Shown: piece by piece, positions 23,622-63,975 of the stretch
Layout: every line of letters begins with the position of its first letter
Numbering within the stretch: position 1 is the stretch's first letter
Assembly (NCBI GenBank): GCA_027382625.1
Contig: JAJKFJ010022537.1
Location: 1-64,000, forward strand
Source: Tetmemena sp. SeJ-2015
Taxonomy: Eukaryota; Ciliophora; Spirotrichea; Sporadotrichida; Oxytrichidae
DNA length: 64,000 bases
Direction: 5' to 3'
Position numbers and translations under genes: made by a program
The notes under the pieces: generated by a model
Databases searched by the model: none
Told to the model about the DNA's origin: nothing
Seen by the model: the letters and a program-made list of their open reading frames with translations, nothing else

Positions 23622-26600
23622 ATGATTCTTCCCATGAATAGAATTCTCTTAGCGGCAATAACTTTGCTAAGAATGGTGTTAACAGATACCAAATTTGACT
23701 ACTGTGAAAATCAAATAACTAAAAAATATAAATGAATTTGTAAAGTATTTTATCTTTTAACTCCTATTGGAGTATTTCCACAGATAGACTCAACTAAACA
23801 GGCTATTATAACTTGTCTCTAATATTTATATAATATGAGATCACTTGATAAAGCTTAATCTATGGAGGATATTCTCAAAACTTTTAATTGCTAAATAATC
23901 ATCTATCAATTAATTCAGATTTTAATCTTATTTTAATATACAAAATTTTAACTATTAAAGTAAAAGTTTTAAATTGAGATATAGATTCACTGAATTACTT
24001 AGTGCTTTATCATTCAATGAATGAAACTTTTTAAATATTAAAGTTTTAATATTAAATGAATAATTATTCAATTTGTAAGCTAATCTAAATTTTTTTTAAA
24101 AAAATGGATGTAATTTTTATAGAGTAGACTATATAATTATAAGCAAAAGGTTTTTTTTTCAAATTTAAAGAAATAAATATCTTTTTGTCTTTGATCTCTT
24201 AAATCTTTTAAACCGAAATCTTTTTTCATATATCATTTTTACTTATTTGCGTATTTATATCAAGATATAAAAATAAATTTATTTTCATGGATATTCTGAA
24301 TCAACATCATTCTTATAGGGAGATTATACGTCTCAAGGGAACTCATTTTTAATAGCTTAATATCTAGACAAGGGAAACTATATGTTCTAAAAATAAACAA
24401 AATAAAATACGAGAGATAAATTTTTAATTACTTATACGCTTTTTTATTTATGAAAATAAATTTTTCTTATAAATCTCTTATAAAATATTTTATTTTTTTT
24501 CCTTAAGAATTCTGGTAATTAATATTTTTAAATGCATTTAAAAGAAATATGTTTATTAAAATATTAAGGATCACTTAATATACTCTAACTACTGTTTAGA
24601 ATTTATAAAAAAATAAATAATTTTGGCTAAAAATAATTAAAATGTAAAATATGTTGCAGTAGTTGAATCATTAAGGGTTTGGAAATGTTTAATTTGTATT
24701 TTTCTTCAGAAATTCTATGCTAATTCTAGTTGAAAATTTATATATAAAATAGACTAACTTTTATAATGAACTTATAGAGGCAAATTTTAGATTTTACCTG
24801 CAGATATTTTCTAGTTATTTTTTTTTTATTTATCAAATTTATAATTTAATTTAATAGCTTAGGAATAATAAATCTAAAAAGAAATCAAAATTAATATATT
24901 TAATCGGAACGGTATCTAGTCCATTTGCTATAAGTCTATGTGCGATTTCTCAAAATTATATATTTCTAATTGATTATGGTATCTCAATCGCAATAATTGC
25001 TTATGAAGACTTAATTCAAATAAATTATTTTATTTATGATAATAAAATTTAGATTTTTTAACCTCCACAATAATAAATTCAAGATAGATTTTATCACCTT
25101 TAAATTATTTATGACAACCATATTAAGAATAGGTATGTTATAATATAATGAGAATAAATCATTTTATATAATTTATAATAATTTCTCTATAAAATTTAAT
25201 TGAAATTAATCATCTCTATTTATTTAAGTTAATTATTTTTTGACTTTAGCTACAAGCAGATATATTATTAATTTAGAATAAATTTCAAATTATAAAAACG
25301 CAATTATTTTATCAATATTAGGTATATTAAGTCATTTGCTAATCGTAGCAACTTATAGTTTAAGAATGACCCAAAAAGTGTAAATAAGGTATTCAGCATA
25401 GATACTATGAAGATAGATTCAAACAATAAGGTCTAAATTTAAAATGGGAAATTATAATTTTGTATCAGCTCAATTAAAATTAAGGTATTGGTTCATTTAA
25501 GAGGTAAGGTTTCAGAATTATTTTTATTCAGAAATCTTTTAGCTTCCTCAAATTTGCCATCAGACGAAGATAAATTATTTATTTAAAAGAGTATCTGGTA
25601 GTGTACAAATAATATCGCATTAATTATAATTTTAAAATAAAAGGAAATTTTTCGTTATTTTAAAAATAATATTACTGTGAACAAATAAATATTTTAGAAT
25701 ATATTTTTTAAAAAAAGGTATTTTTATCTTTATCCTTATAAGATGATACGCACTTAGTATCTTATTTAATCTAGGTTAAAAGTCAAATAGGATATGAATT
25801 CTACCAAGAATTATTGATAATATTTTTAATGCACATAATTTTATGACTAGATTAAATATTAAGTTTATTTCTTCTTTTAAATAATTTCCCAAATATTCAT
25901 AATTGATTTCTTCTCAAATGAATATTAAAATAAATTAGAGATTATAATTGATAATTTAAATAAATACACTGAAGACTTGACTAGTCATTTTGTTTACTAG
26001 CTAAGCATTAAAATAAATTTTACTTACGCTAAGTTCAGGTGAAACAAGCATTTTTAAAGCGGGCAAGGTTAGCAAATTTTAATTTAAGAACATCATTAGG
26101 CTGTTCAAGAAACTTTTTTATTTTAAATTTTTAGCATGCTTTCATTTTTTATAACTTATAATTTCTACTTCGCCTCATAAGTAACCTTAAATGGTTATAT
26201 AAATTGCAAAATATTATTAATTTAAATGGCAAGTTCACCTACTCTTTAAGTTTTGTTTCACTTTACAATTCATAGTAAGTTTAAGCAATAATCTTAAGCA
26301 TTTAATAAATTCTCCCTATAGTTTCTATTATAACTACATTCAAGTAACCACATAATCAAATTCTGTTTTCTATAAATATAAATTTAGAAGGACTTGAATA
26401 TCATATTTTATTATTTTCACGGCACTAGATGCTGCTTTAAGCCCAGGTAAATTCACATTATTCATTAAAGATATTAAGATAGCACATATTCTATTACTGT
26501 TGCATAAAAACCTAATCAATATTTTATTATTATCTCATTAAATTAAAATATTTAATTTTAGCTTAATTGGTAGGAATTTCTAAGTTATAAAATGATTTTC

Positions 26601-41780: not shown

Positions 41781-44700
41781 TCATTTTCTTTAACTGACCT
41801 TGAAGATTTCTATTTCTGCCACTTTAAATGACTAGGATCCGGCGAGATATTATAAATTTATAATAGATTTCTAAAAATATAAATAAATAAATGAATTAAT
41901 TGGAGAGCGTTTTTTTATCCACTTCCTGATTGTTTATTAAATATATGAAAATAATAGATCAGAATATTTGAGTGTATCAGAATGCAGTTTAAATTTAAAG
42001 ATATTAAATAATTGTTGCGATTATCACATATTAAAAATCAACCTCGCTTCCATCACCAATAATGTCTCCCTCTGAGTCTGTTCCTGTCACCCACAATTAG
42101 ACGACTTCGCTAGGAGTGGTTCCATAGGCCTGGCAGGAGACTCAGAAAATAGGGTTTGAATCCCGCCCCTTATCTTACATTTCACAGTCCCCCTCTGTGC
42201 ACCCCCACCTTCTTACTTACTATGACTGTCTCGCAATAAGCTCTCTGACTGATCTCTACTAGCAGGCCTATGGAACCACTCCTAGCGAAGTCGTCTAATT
42301 GTGGGTGACAGGAACAGACTCAGAGGGAGACATTATTGGTGATGGAAGCGAGGTTGATTTTTAATATGTGATAATCGCAACAATTATTTAATATCTTTAA
42401 ATTTAAACTGCATTCTGATACACTCAAATATTCTGATCTATTATTTTCATATATTTAATAAACAATCAGGAAGTGGATAAAAAAACGTTCTCCAATTAAT
42501 TCATTTATTTATTTATATTTTTAGAAATCTATTATAAATTTATAATAGTTATTGGCCTCATTTGAGCTCTTTGCCATTCCATCAGGAGGCTTATAAGTAA
42601 ACTTTAATAAGATTTTTGCAAAAACCTGATCTTTGAGCATTGTTTAGAACCGAAGTGTGAGTAGCTGAGTGCATTGTTGTTGCATTTAAAAATTAAATAT
42701 TACATAGGATAATAACTAATTTTCTAATTCAGTACGATAAGTGCTGTTTTAAGAAATAGATTATTAATTATATTCCTAAAATTTTACTTTTACTTTACTT
42801 TAAAAATTAAATATAGAATGTTTTATATGTGAAAATGATTTTTAATGATCGAAGCGAAATTAAAGGAGATAACCCACAGCGATGATAAAAAGACACTCTC
42901 AACTGGAGTAACATGCTCTAAACAAAAACCTGTCAACCACGACCTCAGTGTATCAGTTTTGGCGCATTTCTTTCATTTAAGGAGGGCGAGAGAATCCCAT
43001 TGTGGAAGTTGACACCCTACACCGAATCGGCTCTCACTCTGAGCACATCCGAATATGGCGGTTTGACCCTTGCGCAAAAGATTTTTGATCCTGATTGGTC
43101 AAGAATAGAAATGAAAAAACTCACATATGGCCAAATAATTGACGAGACGAGTATTTCTTCTTTGTATTTGGCGTTAATTAATGAGTAAGGTAAGAAGTAA
43201 ATACCCCAATGGCCGCTAGATTCCGTTGATGATTTCTACATCAAACGTCGCTCCCTGTTGATGCGCTATTATCCTTGCGTGATAGTGCTAATCTAGAGCA
43301 AGCGGACTACATATTGGGAAATACTTCGGTTCTCCCACGGCATTGGGAACTCCAAAGTACAAGCACCCTCTATATAACATACTACTTACCCTTGGATTAC
43401 AAAATGTGCTTGCATTTTATAATCTCTGCCAACAATGTCAGCCTTGGCCAAAATACCAAGGGCCACTGGTTTGTAAATCAGGGTTCTTGCTTAATAACCT
43501 TCTAATATAATAAGAGAGTTGCAATTTAGAGTATTAATTTATAACTGAACAGGTTTAAAAATTATCGTCCTAGCCATCTAACAGCTTTTAAGGTTAAACA
43601 GATATATACAGATCAATTCAAAGATATTCTTACCCTCTGAACATTTGAAAGAAAACACAGGTCGGGTAATAGTAGACATGTCTCACTGAAACACTGAAGT
43701 CATTGGCTTTATAATATTTTCAGTCTCCTTTGTAGATATCGCCATCAGTTTGAGATTGCTATGTGTCTGACTGATAGGTATCTAATGTCAAAGTCGAGGA
43801 GTGCTCCCGTATCAAACTGTGAATTTCCCCTCCAAGGTTTATTCAAATATTTAGATGCCTTGAGTCTGAATAAGATTAAATGAATGGAATATTAGCGAGC
43901 AAAGATTGAAATGATGAGAAAAGGCAGTTGAAAATATAAGCGTACAACTGTGACTGCTAGGGCAAGGTATTGAGAGGTCACCCTGATATTTGAATAAACC
44001 TTGGAGGGGAAATTCACAGTTTGATACGGGAGCACTCCTCGACTTTGACATTAGATACCTATCAGTCAGACACATAGCAATCTCAAACTGATGGCGATAT
44101 CTACAAAGGAGACTGAAAATATTATAAAGCCAATGACTTCAGTGTTTCAGTGAGACATGTCTACTATTACCCGACCTGTGTTTTCTTTCAAATGTTCAGA
44201 GGGTAAGAATATCTTTGAATTGATCTGTATATATCTGTTTAACCTTAAAAGCTGTTAGATGGCTAGGACGATAATTTTTAAACCTGTTCAGTTATAAATT
44301 AATACTCTAAATTGCAACTCTCTTATATATTATTCAGGGAAGGGAATAAACTCTTTCCAACCAATTAGCTATTTAATTCCTTATTTAAAAAAAAGGGAAG
44401 GCCTTTCCTCATCATCCACTTTTTTTTATGAAAAATTGACATCTGTCCTAAAATCAGCCAAAAAACAATAATTATTTTGCCCAAATTCGAATCTAAATGA
44501 TCTTGCCTACTCATATTCTTCATTTTAGATAATATGGGAGAATCTTTATAGAAATTTTATTTTAAAAAAAAATTTAATTGTAAAGAAATGGTACGCAATT
44601 TAAGCAAATTAAAGCCTTAATAGATTTAAGATTTATAATGTAGCAACTAATTCATGATCTCTAAACTTGTCTATAAGATATTTAGAGTTCTCTTTTTACT

Positions 44701-46742
44701 TTAGACACGCATTAAATCTAGTTACTTTAAAATTAAGATCTTGATCTTATTATTTCTATTTCAACAATTTTTATGTAAGCTGATAAATTAAGAAATCCTA
44801 TTTATTATATGTCTCTTCAAACATTTTATATATAATGACTTTTGTTTTTATTACTTATATAAGTTAAAGCATATTCGTAAGAAATTTATTTTATTAAAAG
44901 CCTTTTGTGCATCAATATCTTAGCTGGTTATGTAATATATTTTTTAAAAATTGCTATAAGATTAAACAATATAGCTGAATTTTAAAATGTGCTAAAACTA
45001 TAATATAATTCCTCAAATTGAAGAATATGAGTAGTTTAGACCCTTTGTATTTGAATTTTGACCAAAGAATTGTTGTTTTTATATCATTTAGACTAGATAG
45101 TGATTTTTCATTTTAAACAAAAAAAAGTGGGATAACGAGTATAGGCCACCCCAAAAAAAATTATAGATAATTTAATAGAAAAGAGAATTAAATTATTATA
45201 ATAATTAAATGGCAAATTATCTAGGCAGTAAAAGTGCGGCGTTTAATTTAAATAATTATTACACCATTTGGTTTAGCATGGAATTCTAGGAACTTTATAT
45301 CTTTGCAACTTTTGTGTGTGAGCTCTCAGTACAGAGTTATAAGCGACACAAGTTTAAGAGTTTTAGATATTAAAGATAAGAAATTCGCGCGCACATATCT
45401 AGCTTGTAAGCAGCTGCAAAGTTGATTAAAGAAGAAACTCATATTTATTTTTGATAAGCTATCGAACAAGCTACAGATAGAGGGCTGTTTGAGCGATTTC
45501 AACTGACACAAATTTGCAACTCTCCATTTATTATTTTAATCAACCACCAATTTTAATTTAATTCTCAGCTATATTATTATAGCTATAATATTAATACAAT
45601 CGTGGTAAAGAAGAATATCATAGCCAAACCAGATCATGAAAGAGTTTTCGAAATAGAGTGCCTGCTCTTTGTTTTAATACTGCTCATGCTTGGTTTTATG
45701 AGTAAGGGAAAAGATGAAGGCTTTTGAATCAGCAGTCCAGGCCCCAACAGCTTTCCAGCCGATGTTACTGTAGCCTCCAAATACCTTGTCATGCTCAGAC
45801 TTGACGATGGCTATGATAGCTCCCTTATTGTTTATCTTTTCATGCATTTTGGCAGAATTAAAGGTGTCTCTTGTGGCCTTGTACAGTAACTCAAACTTCT
45901 GTTTTTCTGCTTTCATTTCTCCATCTATCCATGATTTCATAAGCTCTTCATGCTCATCTGTAATGCCAAATGCTCTAAGAGTTTCCTCATTAAAGTCATT
46001 TTCAATAAAACGTTATCCTTCCTTGAATACTAGCTCCACTTGTTGTTTCTCCTCCTTTGAGATGATTTAGTCTTTCACTTCTCTAAATATTTTCACAAAC
46101 TAATCAGAGGTGTAACTCTTCTCCTTCTACTTAAATTAACTCACTTGCTCAATTAAACCTCATTTGAAATTTTATCATTAAAATTAGATTTATTAATGTA
46201 GTTTAGGGTCTATATCTTATTCCTTCTGTCCTAAAGTAAGTTGAGAGATCTATCACATAGTCCCTCTACATCTTTTGCAGCCACTTGCTCTAGGCTTCTT
46301 TGAGTGACCTGCATGAGTCTTTACAGCACACTAGTGGCAAATCATTTCTTTGTGCACTGGACAAAAGTACTCAGCTATCATATCTTGATGGTCTTTGCAC
46401 ACAATCCAAAGCAGTGATGCTTTCTGCTTCAGAAGCTTATTAAAATTATAATGGCATTCTCTTATTTAGGATATCAAAATTAATTTCACTATAGTCACAT
46501 TCAAAATGAGTGTAGCTTTTGGGATTTATGTGTATACTATATTTTTTATTGTCTCTAAACTTCATGGTAATTATGAGAATTTCTTAATCGATTGGGCAAA
46601 TGATCTTGTTCTCCTGTGGTTGGAGCAAGGGCGAGAAACATGAAAGACAGATTGAGTCCCCACATGGCAGTATAAGCTGGTGACGGTCAATTTGATTAAA
46701 TAACTCATTGCAATTTTAACATCGGTATCCCAGAGCTTCCAT
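41781..46742 (-). CDS. RING / B-box / TLDc domain protein, copy A (invaded by elements)
   Basis: ATG at 46742. Residues ~1-60 form a RING-like Cys motif (YRCQNCNELF...LPCGDSICLSC...IICP) in which the usual His is Asp (CGDSIC). A B-box follows (CKDHQDMIAEYFCPVHKEMICHQC, about 46390-46300), then a helical linker and the TLDc domain (about 45940-45610: VFGGYSNIGW, SKAFIFSLT, IWFGYDILLYHDC). Coding stops being continuous at 45610 and resumes 2.9 kb away at about 42690 (CNNNALSYSHFGS), runs through TYKPPDGMAKSSNEANN, is cut by a 696-bp foldback element, and ends YLAGSQSFKVAEIEIFKV before TGA at 41781-41783. One extra base (CC for C near 46288) shifts the frame compared with copy B. TLDc proteins are linked to oxidative-stress resistance, and RING/B-box suggests a ubiquitin-ligase role. 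It may be functional only after germline DNA elimination. Confidence 0.7.
41850..42545. mobile_element. 696-bp foldback element inside a TLDc exon, TA-flanked
   Basis: Arms of ~290 bp (41850-42139 and about 42263-42545) are almost perfect reverse complements around a ~120-bp unique centre. Tips are TTATAAATTTATAATAG. The element is flanked by TA on both sides (41848-41849 and 42546-42547). Removing the element and one TA restores NEANN-YLAGS, exactly the uninterrupted coding of paralog copy B at about 47128. It thus behaves as an IES that is recognisably a TIR transposon. No coding capacity is seen in it. Confidence 0.8.
42599..42621 (-). other. 23-bp IES in TLDc copy A, pointer AAAC (GTTT on coding strand)
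   Basis: AAAC is repeated at 42599-42602 and 42622-42625. Removing 23 bp joins SKIRF to TYKPPDG in the TLDc frame. The paralog has a 23-bp insert at the same place. Confidence 0.7.
42913..43548 (+). CDS. Unknown ORF lying inside the gap of the TLDc gene
   Basis: Ciliate-code frame of 211 codons on the strand opposite to the surrounding gene, beginning MLQTKTCQPRPQC and containing PLWKLTPYTESALTLSTSEY and DPDWSRIEMKKLTYGQIIDE. From about 43225 a second frame (VDALLSLRDSANLEQADYIL, then GHWFVNQGSCLITF) looks more convincing than the continuing first one, so the true product may switch frame there through an indel or IES. GC content is above the flanks. Its last ~40 bases run into the arm of the adjacent foldback element. 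No family recognised. It could be part of a transposon, a nested gene segment, or chance. Confidence 0.35.
43510..44326. mobile_element. ~817-bp foldback element 2 in the TLDc copy A gap
   Basis: Arms of ~345 bp (43510-43855 and 43984-44326) read as identical reverse complements in the portions I compared. The centre of ~130 bp is unique. Outer tips are ATAAGAGAGTTGCAATTT and its complement. Sequence is unrelated to the 696-bp element but the architecture is the same. Either a very young foldback transposon or an inversion artefact of amplification; no empty paralogous site is available to decide. Confidence 0.6.
44327..45160. other. AT-rich filler inside the TLDc copy A gap
   Basis: Over 800 bases of roughly 78% AT with no supported frame, repeat or motif. 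Presumably germline-limited DNA removed with the neighbouring elements. Confidence 0.5.
45161..45575 (+). mobile_element. MITE-like dispersed repeat at the broken edge of TLDc copy A
   Basis: Third direct copy of the repeat of 3350/4191, with AGTTATAAGCGACACAAGTTT, AAAGAAGAAACTCATATTTA and GCAACTCTCCATTTATTATT in order. Its right end TTTAATTCTCAGCTAT is the complement of the left end of copy b, which shows the terminal inverted repeats. It lies within 35 bp of the last recognisable TLDc codon block (…LLYHDC). Confidence 0.65.
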
Positions 46743-47057: not shown

Positions 47058-48476
47058 TCATTCTCTTTCACTTACTAGGAAAATTTCCATTTCTGTCACT
47101 TTGAAAGTATGGGATCCAGCCAGATAATTATTGGCTTCATTAGAGCCCTGCAACATGCCATCAGGAGGCTTATAAGTATACTTCGAAAATGTTAAAACAA
47201 AAACCTCATATTGTAGAATAGATTAGAACCGAAGTTAGAATAGCTGCTTGCATTCACGTTGCATTTAAAAATTTAACAGAGAATATTACGATTGCAATCT
47301 GTGTAAAGTAGAATGTCATAGCCAAACCAGATCATGAAAGAGTTAGCGAAATAGAGTGCCTGCTCTTTGTTTTGATACTGCTCATGCTTGGTTTTCTAAG
47401 TGAGAGAAAAGATAAAAGCTTTTGGGTCTGCAGTCCATGCCCCATCTGCTTTCCAGCCTATGCTGCTGTAGCCTCCAAACACTTTACCATGTTCAGACTT
47501 GACGATGGCTATGATAGCTCCCTTATTGTTTATCATTTCATGCATTTTGGCAGAATTGAAGGTGTCTCTTGTAGCCTTGTAAAGCAACTAAAACTTTTGT
47601 TTTTCTGCTTCTTCCTCGCCACCAATCCAAGTTTTCATAAGTTCTTCGTGCTCATCTGTAATACCAAATGCGTTTAGAGTGTCCTCGCTAAGGTCATTTT
47701 CAATAGGTCGTACTCCCTCCTTGAATACTAGCTCAACATGGTGTTTCTCTTCTTTAGGAATGTGGGGTATGATAGAGTCTTGCACCTCTCTGAATATCTT
47801 CACAAACTGCTCTGAGGTGTAACTCTTCTCCTTCAACTGGAACTGACTCACTTGCTCAATTAAACACGCATCCAAAAGAAAAGCATGAAAGTGAATATTG
47901 TCAGTCTGAAATAGTTTAGAGACTGTATCTTATTCTTTCTGTCTTGGAGTCTGTTGAGAGATCTGTCGCAGAATCCCTCTACATCTCTAGATGTCACATG
48001 CTCTAGCTTCTTGGCGTGATCTGCGTGGGTCTTGAAGGCGCACTAGTGGCAGATCATTGCCTTGTGCACTGGACAAAAATACTCCGCGATGATATCTTGA
48101 TGGTCCTTGCACAGAATCCAAAGTAGAGATGCTTTCTGCTTCAGAAGTTTATTAGAAAAATAATCTCTTTATTATATCAAAGTATACCAAAATTAATATG
48201 GCAATAGTCACATTCAATCAATATAACGAAAACAATGATGACAATGATGATCGTATTTTGTGCTTATACGATATTAATTGAATTGTCTCTAAATTTCTTG
48301 GGAATGACTAGTATTTCTTCATCGACTGGGCAGATGATCTTATTCTCCTGTGGTTGAAGCAAGGGTTCGAAGCAAGAGAGGCAGATTGAGTCTCCACAGG
48401 GCAGCATGAGTTAGTGGCGATCGATTTGGTTAAAGCGCTCGTTGCACTTTGCACATCGGTATTCCAGAGCTTCCAT
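47058..48476 (-). CDS. RING / B-box / TLDc domain protein, copy B
   Basis: ATG at 48476. RING-like motif YRCAKCNERF...LPCGDSICLSC...IICPVDEE (His replaced by Asp as in copy A), B-box CKDHQDIIAEYFCPVHKAMICHQC (about 48115-48045), linker helix (QVSQFQLKEKSYTSEQFVKI), and TLDc domain from about 47590 (VFGGYSSIGWKADGAW, DPKAFIFSL, IWFGYDILLYTDCN). After removal of a 33-bp and a 23-bp IES it continues VNASSYSNFGSN...YTYKPPDGMLQGSNEANNYLAGS and ends HTFKVTEMEIFLVSERE, TGA at 47058-47060. Non-coding inserts also lie near 48150-48240 and 47880-47930. Family roles: ubiquitin ligation (RING) and oxidative-stress protection or V-ATPase binding (TLDc). Uninterrupted by transposons, so it is the reference for copy A. 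Confidence 0.8.
47180..47202 (-). other. 23-bp IES in TLDc copy B, 2-bp pointer
   Basis: Bordered by AC (GT on the coding strand) at 47180 and 47203. Removal gives SNLFYNMRYTYKPPDG in frame. A splice reading with the nearby AG shifts the frame by one and breaks the conserved YKPPDG. Confidence 0.6.
47259..47291 (-). other. IES in TLDc copy B, pointer TTGCA
   Basis: TTGCA at 47259-47263 and 47292-47296 (TGCAA on the coding strand). Removal of 33 bp joins LLYTDCN to VNASSYSNFGSN, the expected TLDc sequence. In copy A the same site holds 2.9 kb of inserted DNA. Confidence 0.75.
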
Positions 48477-49677: not shown

Positions 49678-50979
49678 ACCTCTGTTGGGTTCCTTTCCGT
49701 TGAAGAAGTCCTTGATGAGTTGTTGGACCTTGGGGATTCTGGTAGAACCACCGACGAGCACGACCTCATCGATATCAGTCTTCTTCATGCCTGCATCGTC
49801 GAGAACCTGCTGCACGGGCTGGAGAGTCTTCTTGAATAGGTCATTGCAGAGTTCCTCGAATCTGGCTCTAGTGATTGTCTCACTGAAGTCAATTCCGTCA
49901 ACGATGTTCTCAATGGAGACCTTGGTCTGATGGACGCTGGAGAGGTCTCTCTTTGCCTTCTCAACTTCGGCTCTGAGCTTCTGGAAAGCTCTGGGATCGT
50001 CCTTGATGTCCTTGTTGTGCTTCTTCTTGAAGATCTTGATGAAGTGCTCGGTGAGTCTCTGATCGAAATCTTCTCCTCCCAAGTGGGTATCTCCGGCAGT
50101 GGCGACGACTTCGAAAACTCCGTTATCGATGGTGAGGAGGGACACATCAAAGGTACCACCACCCAAATCGAACACGATGATATTCTTCTCTCCCTGCTTC
50201 TTGTCCATACCGTAGGCGATGGCTGCAGCGGTGGGCTCGTTAATGATTCTGAGAACGTCGAGTCCAGCGATGAGGCCAGCATCCTTGGTTGCTTGTCTCT
50301 GTGAGTCGTTGAAGTAGGCGGGGACGGTGATGACGGCGTGCTTGACGTCTCTTCCGAGGTATGCCTCAGCGATCTCCTTCATCTTGATGAGGATGAAGGC
50401 AGAGATCTCCTCAGGGGATAGGGTCTTCTCCTCACCTCCTTGAACTTGCATCTTAATGTAAGGCTTGCCTCCCTTGTTCACGATGTCGTAAGGAAGATAA
50501 ACCAAGAGTGTCAGCAATCAATTAGCAGATCTATGGATGAAGCATTGATTCATCTGTAAGTTTACTTCTTGTCTCTTTGAACTTCCTTGTCTTCGTAGCC
50601 TCTACCGATGAGACGCTTGACGACGTAGATGGTTCTCTTGGGGTTGATGTGGCCTTGATTCTTGGCGGCTTCTCCAACCAGGCGCTCCTCATCAGAGAAG
50701 GCGACATAAGAGGGAGTGATACGGTTTCCGAACTCGTTTGGAATGATCTCGACTCTTCCATTCTTGAAGATACCCACGCAAGAGTAGGTGGTTCCCAGAT
50801 CAATACCGATGACTGGACCCTCCACTAAACAAACAGGTGAGCTCAAAGTTTAAGTGATAGCAAATACGAAAGAGGATGGGGAGTGAGAACTTACCTTCCT
50901 TCTTTTTGGAGGGACCGCAAATGAATGCGAGGGCTAGTAAAGATATCAAGATGACTTGATTTAAACTTGTCCTTTTCAT
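48865..50979 (-). CDS. BiP: BiP / GRP78, ER-lumenal HSP70 chaperone
   Basis: ATG at 50979 begins a signal peptide ([19 protein letters not shown]). After a 70-nt intron (50825-50894) comes [20 protein letters not shown], the first HSP70 phosphate-binding signature, followed by [15 protein letters not shown] and [16 protein letters not shown], substrate-binding domain and lid, and C-terminal HEDL, an ER-retention signal, before TGA at 48865-48867. It is an ATPase that folds and retains proteins in the ER lumen. Only a 68-bp IES near 50488-50560 interrupts the ATPase domain. No TAA/TAG Gln codons were seen where checked and codons are GC-rich, as in H2A, consistent with high expression. Upstream lie a TATA-like run and paired CACGTG boxes. 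Identification is secure. Confidence 0.95.
50488..50555 (-). other. 68-bp IES in BiP, pointer GTAAG
   Basis: GTAAG at 50488-50492 and 50556-50560. The 68-bp segment puts the two halves of the gene in different frames and contains an in-frame TGA. Removing it yields [21 protein letters not shown], matching the HSP70 alignment within one residue. No AG is suitably placed for splicing on the coding strand. Confidence 0.75.
50825..50894 (-). other. BiP intron, 70 nt
   Basis: Coding-strand GTAAGT at 50894 and TTGTTTAG ending at 50825. Splicing joins KKKE to [11 protein letters not shown] through a split Val codon, placing the intron right after the signal peptide. Confidence 0.85.
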
Positions 50980-62442: not shown

Positions 62443-63975
62443 ATGAGAGAAGTTATCAATATTCATGTTGGTCAGGCAGGAGTACAGGTGGGAGCAGCTT
62501 GCTGGGAGCTATTCTGTCTTGAGCATGGTAAGCCTACTCGTCATTGATTCATTTGTACCATAGGTATTAATCCAAGTGGGTTGCTGCCTGAAGAAAATGC
62601 GCATCTCAATAACGATGACTCTTACTAGACTTTCTTCCAAGAGACAGGAGTAAGATCAAATTTAAAAGAGCGATTGTGAATTGAACTAACTCTAAACTAT
62701 TATAGGCTGGAAAATTCGTACCAAGAGCAGTTTAAATCGATCTAGAGCCTACTTGCATAGATGAAGTGAGGTCAGGAACTTACAAGGAGCTGTTTCATCC
62801 CGAGAATTTGATCAGTGGCAAAGAGGACGCAGCTGATAACTTTGCCAGAGGTCACTACACAATTATCCTATAGCCATGTTTCTAGTATATTTAGCACAAT
62901 AGGAAGTGAAGTTATTGACCTGCTTCTCGATAGGATAAGAAAGCTTGCTGATCAGTGCAACGGACTTCAAGGTTTCTTGGTCTTTCACTCGTTCAGTGGT
63001 GGCACAGGATCAGGACTGGCCTCTCTTCTTCTCGAAAAGCTCAAGAGAGATTACGACAAGAAGACAAAGATAGAATTCGCAGTTTACCCTTCAGAGCAGT
63101 TATCATCAACAGTTGTCGAGCCTTATAATTCGGTTTTGTGTACTCACGCTATGCTAGAGTTTTCAGAGGTTGCTTTCATGGTCGACAATTAAGCCATGTA
63201 CGATATTTGCTTGAGGAATATGGATATTGAGAGGCCTAAGTTCACAAACCTAAACAGAATGATTGCTCAGGCTATATCAAGTATAACTGCAAGCTTAAGA
63301 TTTGAGGGTAGTTTGAATTGTGACTTGACTGAGTTCTAAACTAACTTGGTACCCTACCCTCGTATCCACTTCCCCATCTGCTCTTATGCGCCATTCATTT
63401 CGAGTGAGAAAGCTTATCACGAGACTTTTACTACTTATGAGCTATCCTCAGCCGTCTTTGAGCCTGGAAATATGATGGTAGCTAATCAACCTACACTTGG
63501 AAAATACATGGCTTGTTGTCTAATGTACAGAGGAGACGTCGTACCCAAAGATGTGAACGCAGCAGTTGCTACAATCAAATCCAAGCAGACTATAAATTTC
63601 GTGAACTGGTGTCCCACTGGTTTCAAGGTGGGAATTAATCATTCTCCCGCAACAGCTGTGCCTGGTGGAGATACAGCCAAAACCTTGAGATCTCTTTGCA
63701 TGATAACAAATTCCACTTCAGTGGGCAATCCATCTTCAGTATATATGTATAGTCAAATAATTTGCAATTATTTTGTAAAGGTTATAGAGAGAATGGATCA
63801 TAAATTCGACTTGTTAATGAAAAAGAGATGCTTCGTGCATTGGTTTGTAGGAGAAGGTATGGAGGAAGGAGAATTCGCAGAGGCGAGGGAAGATTTAGCA
63901 GCTTTGGAGAAAGATTATTAAGAAGTGGCTCAAGACACAACTGATGCTGAGGAGGGGGATGATATGAATGAATGA
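62443..63975 (+). CDS. Alpha-tubulin, divergent isotype
   Basis: [20 protein letters not shown] with the MREV/I start motif, tubulin signature in altered form ([12 protein letters not shown] for GGGTGSGLGSLL), [42 protein letters not shown] and [20 protein letters not shown]. It forms the microtubule alpha-beta dimer. Introns at 62528-62563 and 62650-62705, a 37-bp IES at 62858-62894, and a probable in-frame intron at 63739-63780. Compared with canonical alpha-tubulin the residue-40 loop is [14 protein letters not shown], lacking Lys40, the C terminus is EEGDDMNE without terminal Tyr, and many core positions differ (FHSFSGG for FNSVGG, PICSYAP for MLSSYAP). Stop TGA 63973-63975. Confidence 0.93.
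62528..62563 (+). other. Alpha-tubulin intron 1, 36 nt
   Basis: GTAAGC...CCATAG; splicing joins EHG to INPSGLLPE through a split Gly codon. Confidence 0.85.
62650..62705 (+). other. Alpha-tubulin intron 2, 56 nt
   Basis: GTAAGA...TTATAG; splicing joins FFQETG to AGKFVPRAV, the conserved ETGAGKxVPRAV. Confidence 0.85.
62858..62894 (+). other. 37-bp IES in alpha-tubulin, pointer CACAAT
   Basis: CACAAT at 62858-62863 and 62895-62900. Removal restores [23 protein letters not shown] against the canonical [23 protein letters not shown]. 37 bp is not a multiple of three and no GT..AG fits. Confidence 0.85.
63739..63780 (+). other. Probable in-frame intron in alpha-tubulin, 42 nt
   Basis: GTATAT...TAAAG. 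The 42-nt segment is AT-rich and open in the CDS frame. Splicing gives [21 protein letters not shown] versus the usual NSTAIAEVFSRIDHKFDL, three residues longer. Without splicing the protein would carry a 17-residue insertion. Confidence 0.5.

Follow-up and report, generated by a model that had tools for sequence, protein, structure and literature searches.

A TA-flanked foldback element in a TLDc gene of Tetmemena belongs to a dispersed family and is probably a transposon-derived IES

What is a 696-bp inverted-repeat element doing among the codons of a TLDc gene, and how did it get there? The question is raised by the window analysed here, which comprises the first 64 kb of a contig of 160,529 bp, and was pursued with genome searches that covered the 146-Mb assembly. 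Code 6 was applied, since the neighbouring BiP gene ends in HEDL-TGA and a tubulin-like gene has an in-frame TAA where glutamine is expected, at what we take to be a conserved glutamine position; the standard code and the Euplotes code were rejected on the same two observations. The second of these genes (window 62812-63975, plus strand) was named by eye as divergent alpha-tubulin-like, with TAA read as glutamine. The assembly contains TBE ends that are identical to the published Tetmemena terminal repeat over 60 nt (L046:6187) and over the first 56 nt (L050:4293), as far as that repeat is given in the cited part of PMC4724952. Because of code 6 and the identity over 60 nt, the assembly is very probably the Tetmemena micronuclear genome, for which the cited part of PMC9797194 gives 237 Mb and 32% GC; the 146 Mb may represent the longer contigs of that genome, 10.8 kb being the smallest length met among them. 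The DNA appears to be in the germline state in that BiP, too, needs a TA-flanked 65-bp piece removed, and without this piece and a 70-nt intron its frame is open to HEDL. Among the best 120 of 7996 BiP matches, many relatives of 80-93% come from contigs some 2.0-2.5 kb long, which is the length expected of gene-sized nanochromosomes, and none in this protein collection exceeds 93% identity. Macronuclear DNA of the species itself did not turn up in the collections searched. The telomere pattern C4A2 had no match, and the 21 matches of C4A4 on 3 contigs are no excess over the reversed control (4 + 24). The first 2000 positions of the window have a GC content of 13.5%.

The host gene, copy A, and its neighbour, copy B, are minus-strand paralogues arranged in tandem (Table 1) and are 75.5% identical over 804 bp in their 5' part. 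Frame restoration was examined within the TLDc part of both. When stretches of 2914, 47, and 698 bp are removed, copy A has 148 stop-free codons under code 6, and copy B opens after the removal of two stretches of 33 and 47 bp. The joined copy A matches Pfam TLD with 1.8e-21 and copy B with 4e-22, while a RING-like N-terminal part of copy A scores under the Pfam cut-offs. The 698-bp cut, which is not a multiple of three, takes out the element and one TA and rejoins NEANN-YLAGS with one TA left, as the original prediction had proposed. The restored copy A reads ...SSNEANNYLAGSQSFKVAEIEIFKVS... across the junction, and copy B is unbroken at the same point (...GSNEANNYLAGSHTFKV..., TA at 47126-47125) and is thus the empty site that it had been said to be. 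In copy A the stop codon TGA comes three codons past the modelled end, and in both copies it is three codons downstream of the last aligned VS. Thus, the element has what is expected of an IES, namely a direct repeat at its borders of which one copy is left and a reading frame that is restored. The 47-bp stretches lie at the same point in A and B, and one TA remains after their removal. A TA at the borders of all putative IESs was considered and rejected, the 2914/33-bp site having TG in A and TGCAA in B. The two proteins are alike at 127 of 148 residues (dN 0.086, dS 0.602, dN/dS 0.143), and with a dN/dS of 0.14 against paralogue B the TLDc protein looks conserved.

Table 1. Positions of the foldback elements, the TLDc copies, the BiP gene, and the putative IESs in the window
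Feature	Position	Strand	Remarks
Coding piece of TLDc copy A following the element, YLAGSQSFKVAEIEIFKVSQRK-TGA	41781..41847	-	alignment to ...KVSQ; final codons and TGA read directly
Left arm, including flanking TA 41848-41849	41848..42140	+	inverted-repeat search
Outer ~150 bp of left arm, common to the family, end TATTATAAATTTA	41848..41999	+	
Loop separating the arms	42141..42254	none	no further copy found in the assembly
Right arm, including flanking TA 42546-42547	42255..42547	-	inverted-repeat search
Outer ~150 bp of right arm, common to the family	42396..42547	-	
Coding piece of TLDc copy A preceding the element, with end ...NEANN	42548..42599	-	
47-bp TA-flanked putative IES, copy A	42600..42646	-	same site in B
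2914-bp putative IES, copy A	42685..45598	-	flanking repeat TG; B has 33 bp here
Second foldback	43510..44326	none	arms 43510-43850 and 43986-44326; within the 2914-bp putative IES
TLDc copy A, first part of domain	45599..46100	-	upstream end approximate
TLDc copy B	47058..47590	-	no break at the insertion point (TA 47125-47126)
47-bp TA-flanked putative IES, copy B	47179..47225	-	
33-bp putative IES, copy B	47264..47296	-	TGCAA repeat
BiP gene	50979-48865	-	70-nt GT-AG intron and 65-bp putative IES
65-bp TA-flanked putative IES in neighbouring BiP	50500..50564	-	removal gives RDKKYLPYD

In our view we are probably dealing with a non-autonomous foldback MITE that inserted at TA and would be precisely excised in the macronucleus. 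This member of a family dispersed in a hypotrich germline would have entered one of the two TLDc paralogues by cut-and-paste, at a TA close to the 3' end, and duplicated this TA, with the transposase presumably supplied in trans. Its persistence would be explained by exact excision in the developing macronucleus, with one TA remaining, as for the other putative IESs of the gene. Another reading, which we judge unlikely, is that the insertion is very recent and not excised, so that copy A would be a new pseudogene. The dN/dS would then record the history before the insertion, and the arms, being 99% alike, are in keeping with a recent event; paralogue B by itself, at dS 0.6, is compatible with an insertion that simply broke copy A. 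However, copy A has two more stretches that must be removed, both at sites that are filled in B as well, and BiP also contains a stretch needing removal. In addition, Oxytricha TBEs in protein-coding regions are described as precisely excised in the cited part of PMC3731211. The unbroken state of the window element's own site is read from one paralogue, at dS 0.6. An uninserted paralogue shows a gain, so that to call the locus a "direct snapshot of transposon-to-IES origin" was an overstatement; nor is the idea new, the concept having already been published for Paramecium and Blepharisma.

The inverted-repeat element itself is real. Its arms comprise 293 nt including the TAs, are 99% complementary, and enclose a loop of 114 nt. 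Without the TAs the arms have 291 nt and four mismatches, at 41907, 42133, 42134, and 42137, of which the last three are close to the inner edge. A TA stands at either border of the 696 bp. Folded as single-stranded DNA the element reaches -331.6 kcal/mol, and none of 20 shuffled sequences folds as well (mean -55.3, sd 5.4). Six-frame reading revealed no transposase of its own, the element consisting largely of near-identical inverted arms. No gene fragment was seen in it either, and the one arm peptide tested, of 42 residues, matched no Pfam family. Elsewhere in the window, at 25263-25286, there is a single isolated match to the element end with three mismatches.

As a whole the element was found once in the assembly, and its relatives are found through its ends. 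Apart from itself, the 696-bp query retrieved a 150-bp stretch of contig C3421 at 70%, which belongs to another foldback (L042), and the inner arm with the loop matched only itself. Full-length copies of the 290-bp arm, which had been proposed as a search target, were accordingly not found in the assembly; the outer part of the arm is shared with the relatives. A search for the 29-nt end that tolerated three mismatches gave 42 places, two of which are the element's own and most of which read TATTATAAATTTAGAATTGATTTTTAAAA; the reversed control gave none. The family end, which is TATTATAAATTTAGAATTGATTTTTAAAA plus one base, occurs under the same threshold at 189 places (95 + 94; reversed control 0 + 0), and among the matches listed many form inverted pairs. 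This bears out the view of a foldback, transposon-like element. Thirteen other elements were cut out, which are 695-972 bp long. With nine of them the window element shares 146-155 bp of the outer arm at 69-75%; for the remaining four the match is shorter, 50-99 bp at 75-86%. Long inverted arms were present in all 11 loci checked by repeat search, ten of which are among the 13; L032, L038, and L040 were counted as elements from their paired ends. The longest ungapped arm blocks in ten other fully paired elements are 97-426 nt. The family thus combines the terminal inverted repeats, dispersed copies, and shared ends of MITEs and foldback elements. Two stretches on contigs C3327 and C4388 (L052, L053), both with a family insertion, are 98.2% alike over 9.9 kb and are perhaps haplotypes. 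Near the loop, the arms of L025, L028, L036, and L041 contain the palindrome GGTTCGAACC, which to us resembles a tRNA T-arm/B box; a tRNA-like centre was rejected, ARAGORN reporting no tRNA in 17 loci. In 16 loci searched with Rfam at E 0.1, L029 and L040 had between them five matches to miRNA families, none of which reached the gathering score.

Arms were compared in 14 elements with gaps ignored. Over 290 bp, an element's own arms resemble each other more closely than they do any other element in 12 of the 14 (the exceptions are L026 and L058); for the outer 140 bp the figure is nine, with two ties and three losses. For the window element, the likeness of its own arms versus that to the best other element is 0.986 versus 0.819 and 0.993 versus 0.813. 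This suggests copying between arms, and a process like gene conversion may maintain their likeness even as the element and its relatives diverge. Palindromes are prone to error, and at least five contigs (C4043, C1107, C441, C449, C1387) end about 126 bp into a family arm, so that the assembly might raise the arm identity. These ends match an assembly with k=127, and for the Tetmemena assembly k up to 127 is given in the cited part of PMC9797194. It might even be supposed that the whole foldback is a chimera of assembly or reads, and the proneness of palindromes to error and the contigs breaking inside arms would fit this. We regard it as very unlikely, because the element has exact TA borders, four differences between the arms, and a 114-nt loop, and because a dispersed family has the identical plan and ends.

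The 2914-bp putative IES of copy A contains a second foldback, with arms of 341 nt that are 100% complementary and a 135-nt loop. In the genome it matched itself and one weak relative of 68-69% on contig C2283, and matches to the fetched loci are limited to 42-50 bp at 80-83%. A decayed MORN-like reading, TDGDIYKGD..., was noticed in it by eye. Among the relatives of the window element, one arm each of L025 (3.8e-9) and L036 (1e-6) encodes a MORN repeat according to Pfam, and an arm of L023 has a piece of DUF4215 at 27.1 bits, against a cut-off of 27.0. A DNA search with the MORN sequence, of which the best 40 of 159 candidates were evaluated, gave at least 45 matches on 26 contigs, in inverted pairs on 18 and in a single orientation on eight. 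Four of these eight were checked for the family end, and all four (C186, C823, C1026, C2793) bear it; C2498, C2958, C3555, and C4496 were left out of this check. The best MORN-coding place outside recognised foldbacks among the top candidates, on contig C3147, is 79% identical over 29 residues, some others are tandem (C3054, C4833, C3143), and a near-identical donor gene outside an element was not found among these candidates. It is likely that arms of relatives captured MORN gene fragments. How foldbacks maintain themselves becomes a testable question, given arms that are alike despite the divergence of the elements and in some cases contain inverted coding fragments. A speculative and rather improbable extension is that each element copies one arm to the other through a hairpin or cruciform, that a captured host fragment would so become a near-perfect inverted repeat, and that double-stranded RNA in the germline would link mobile IESs to the small-RNA rearrangement system. 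If this were true, transcribed foldbacks would yield long double-stranded RNA carrying host-gene sequence.

Whether TA is duplicated on insertion has to be read from unbroken sites. TA was part of the search patterns, and its presence at all 15 left and 14 of the 15 right ends is therefore not evidence for duplication; the one right end with CA instead belongs to a filled copy of the L034 site. Joined flanks were made for 15 elements, six of which were searched against the genome with 40 of 180 candidates scored, and 13 of the 42 resulting rows were dropped as query loci themselves or the filled copy (C1949). Within these best 40 of 180 candidates, unbroken relatives appeared for two of the five other insertions. 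At least 26 rows run through the junction of the L024 insertion and at least three through that of L034 (C2471, C3544, C656; 85-87%). One TA is present in the unbroken L024 site in L037 (87%), and likewise a single TA in L066 for L024 and in L063, L064, and L065 for L034; in L059, which holds a stretch 71% like the L024 site, the TA position falls in a gap. In the relatives, the L034 site falls by eye in a helicase-like reading frame. Within the same candidates, the joined flanks of L025 and L027 matched only themselves, those of L023 themselves and one filled copy, and those of the window element only themselves, paralogue B being absent too. The target-site duplication of the family is thus TA, and filled together with unbroken sites make the excision directly testable with macronuclear data. 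That the element leaves the RNA and not the DNA, as an intron, is highly improbable: the coding sequence is interrupted and restored on exact removal, and BiP does have an intron, but the TAT repeat lets the 698-bp cut shift by no more than three positions, and GT...AG never results. A piggyBac-type element with a TTATAA target can hardly be meant by the TTATAA present at both element ends, because the conserved ends extend past it to the TA and the unbroken sites read have TA without TTATAA.

For the preferred reading, a TA-inserted MITE, a source of transposase is needed. Pfam DDE_3, a possible source, has 921 candidates in the genome, of which 150 were scored. The family end motif is missing from the six DDE_3 loci that were read, each of about 3.4 kb. 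No autonomous copy with a recognised gene was found among 20 longer loci, some of which are clipped by contig ends; L045 and L054 have one family end each, L044 is a short element, and four open frames in the longer loci belong to no Pfam family. Given the TA duplication, as in Tc1/mariner elements, and the many DDE_3 matches, the element is most likely moved in trans by a Tc1/mariner-like enzyme. Of the predicted use of TA as in Tc1/mariner-type elements, the target is supported by the unbroken relatives, and the Tc1/mariner identity stays at the level of this likelihood. TBEs were rejected as close kin, since ends of TATTATAA and a TA duplication stand against telomere-repeat ends and ANT.

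Tec elements of Euplotes use TA and have long inverted repeats. These two features and the spirotrich germline are what they have in common with the present family, by description. Tec elements, which belong to the Tc1/mariner group, have three genes (PMC9797194, PMC4724952; here and below, statements follow the parts of the papers cited). The hypotrich TBEs, with telomere-repeat ends, ANT duplication, and three genes (PMC4724952 Table 3, PMC12242761), are germline transposons in coding DNA that are precisely excised, as is predicted for the present element, and their ends occur in the Tetmemena assembly, but the ends and the duplication are others and no gene was found here. In Paramecium, where IESs have TA borders (PMC3731211), mobile IESs are mostly non-autonomous families located mostly in protein-coding regions, and the ends of the IESs are those of the families (PMC8354472). 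The likeness in TA borders, coding location, and non-autonomy is one of description, whereas long foldback arms with gene fragments are not mentioned in the cited part of PMC8354472. The BogoMITE/MITIES of Blepharisma stoltei (TAA/TTA duplication, about 389 bp, Pogo-linked) are non-autonomous inverted-repeat elements too and are IESs, and palindromic IES families were noted there (PMC9942856). They differ in ciliate class, ends, and the TAA/TTA target, in contrast to the TA and long arms here, and unlike BogoMITE with its Pogo, no autonomous partner was found among the loci read. Outside ciliates, Drosophila Tetris has long inverted arms, is apparently non-autonomous and modular, and may be homogenised, but it has 8-10-bp duplications in place of TA and was placed in Mutator (PMC4079207). 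Plant Pack-TYPE elements are non-autonomous and carry host coding DNA (PMC8903248), as the arms of our relatives carry coding fragments, with the difference that in our case both arms contain the fragment, one inverted relative to the other.

No report of a foldback or MITE family of Tetmemena was found among the papers listed by literature searches; the repeat table of PMC9797194 may hold it as "other", and the words "MITE", "inverted repeat", "palindrom", and "hairpin" are absent from the main text of that paper. The transposon origin of hypotrich IESs has been discussed through TBEs with ANT borders in the cited parts of PMC4724952, PMC12242761, and PMC3731211. Transposon-derived IESs are already known, and what appears to be new is a TA-using hypotrich foldback family some of whose members carry gene fragments. 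A second, TA-using, non-autonomous family in exons would mean that one genome draws its IESs from mobile elements that are unrelated.

A minor observation concerns two of the unbroken relatives of the L034 site. Both L063 and L064 contain a repeated helicase-like ORF about 3.4 kb from DDE_3 matches (C2471:133054 and C3544:34876), and this ORF and the DDE_3 transposase possibly form one element.
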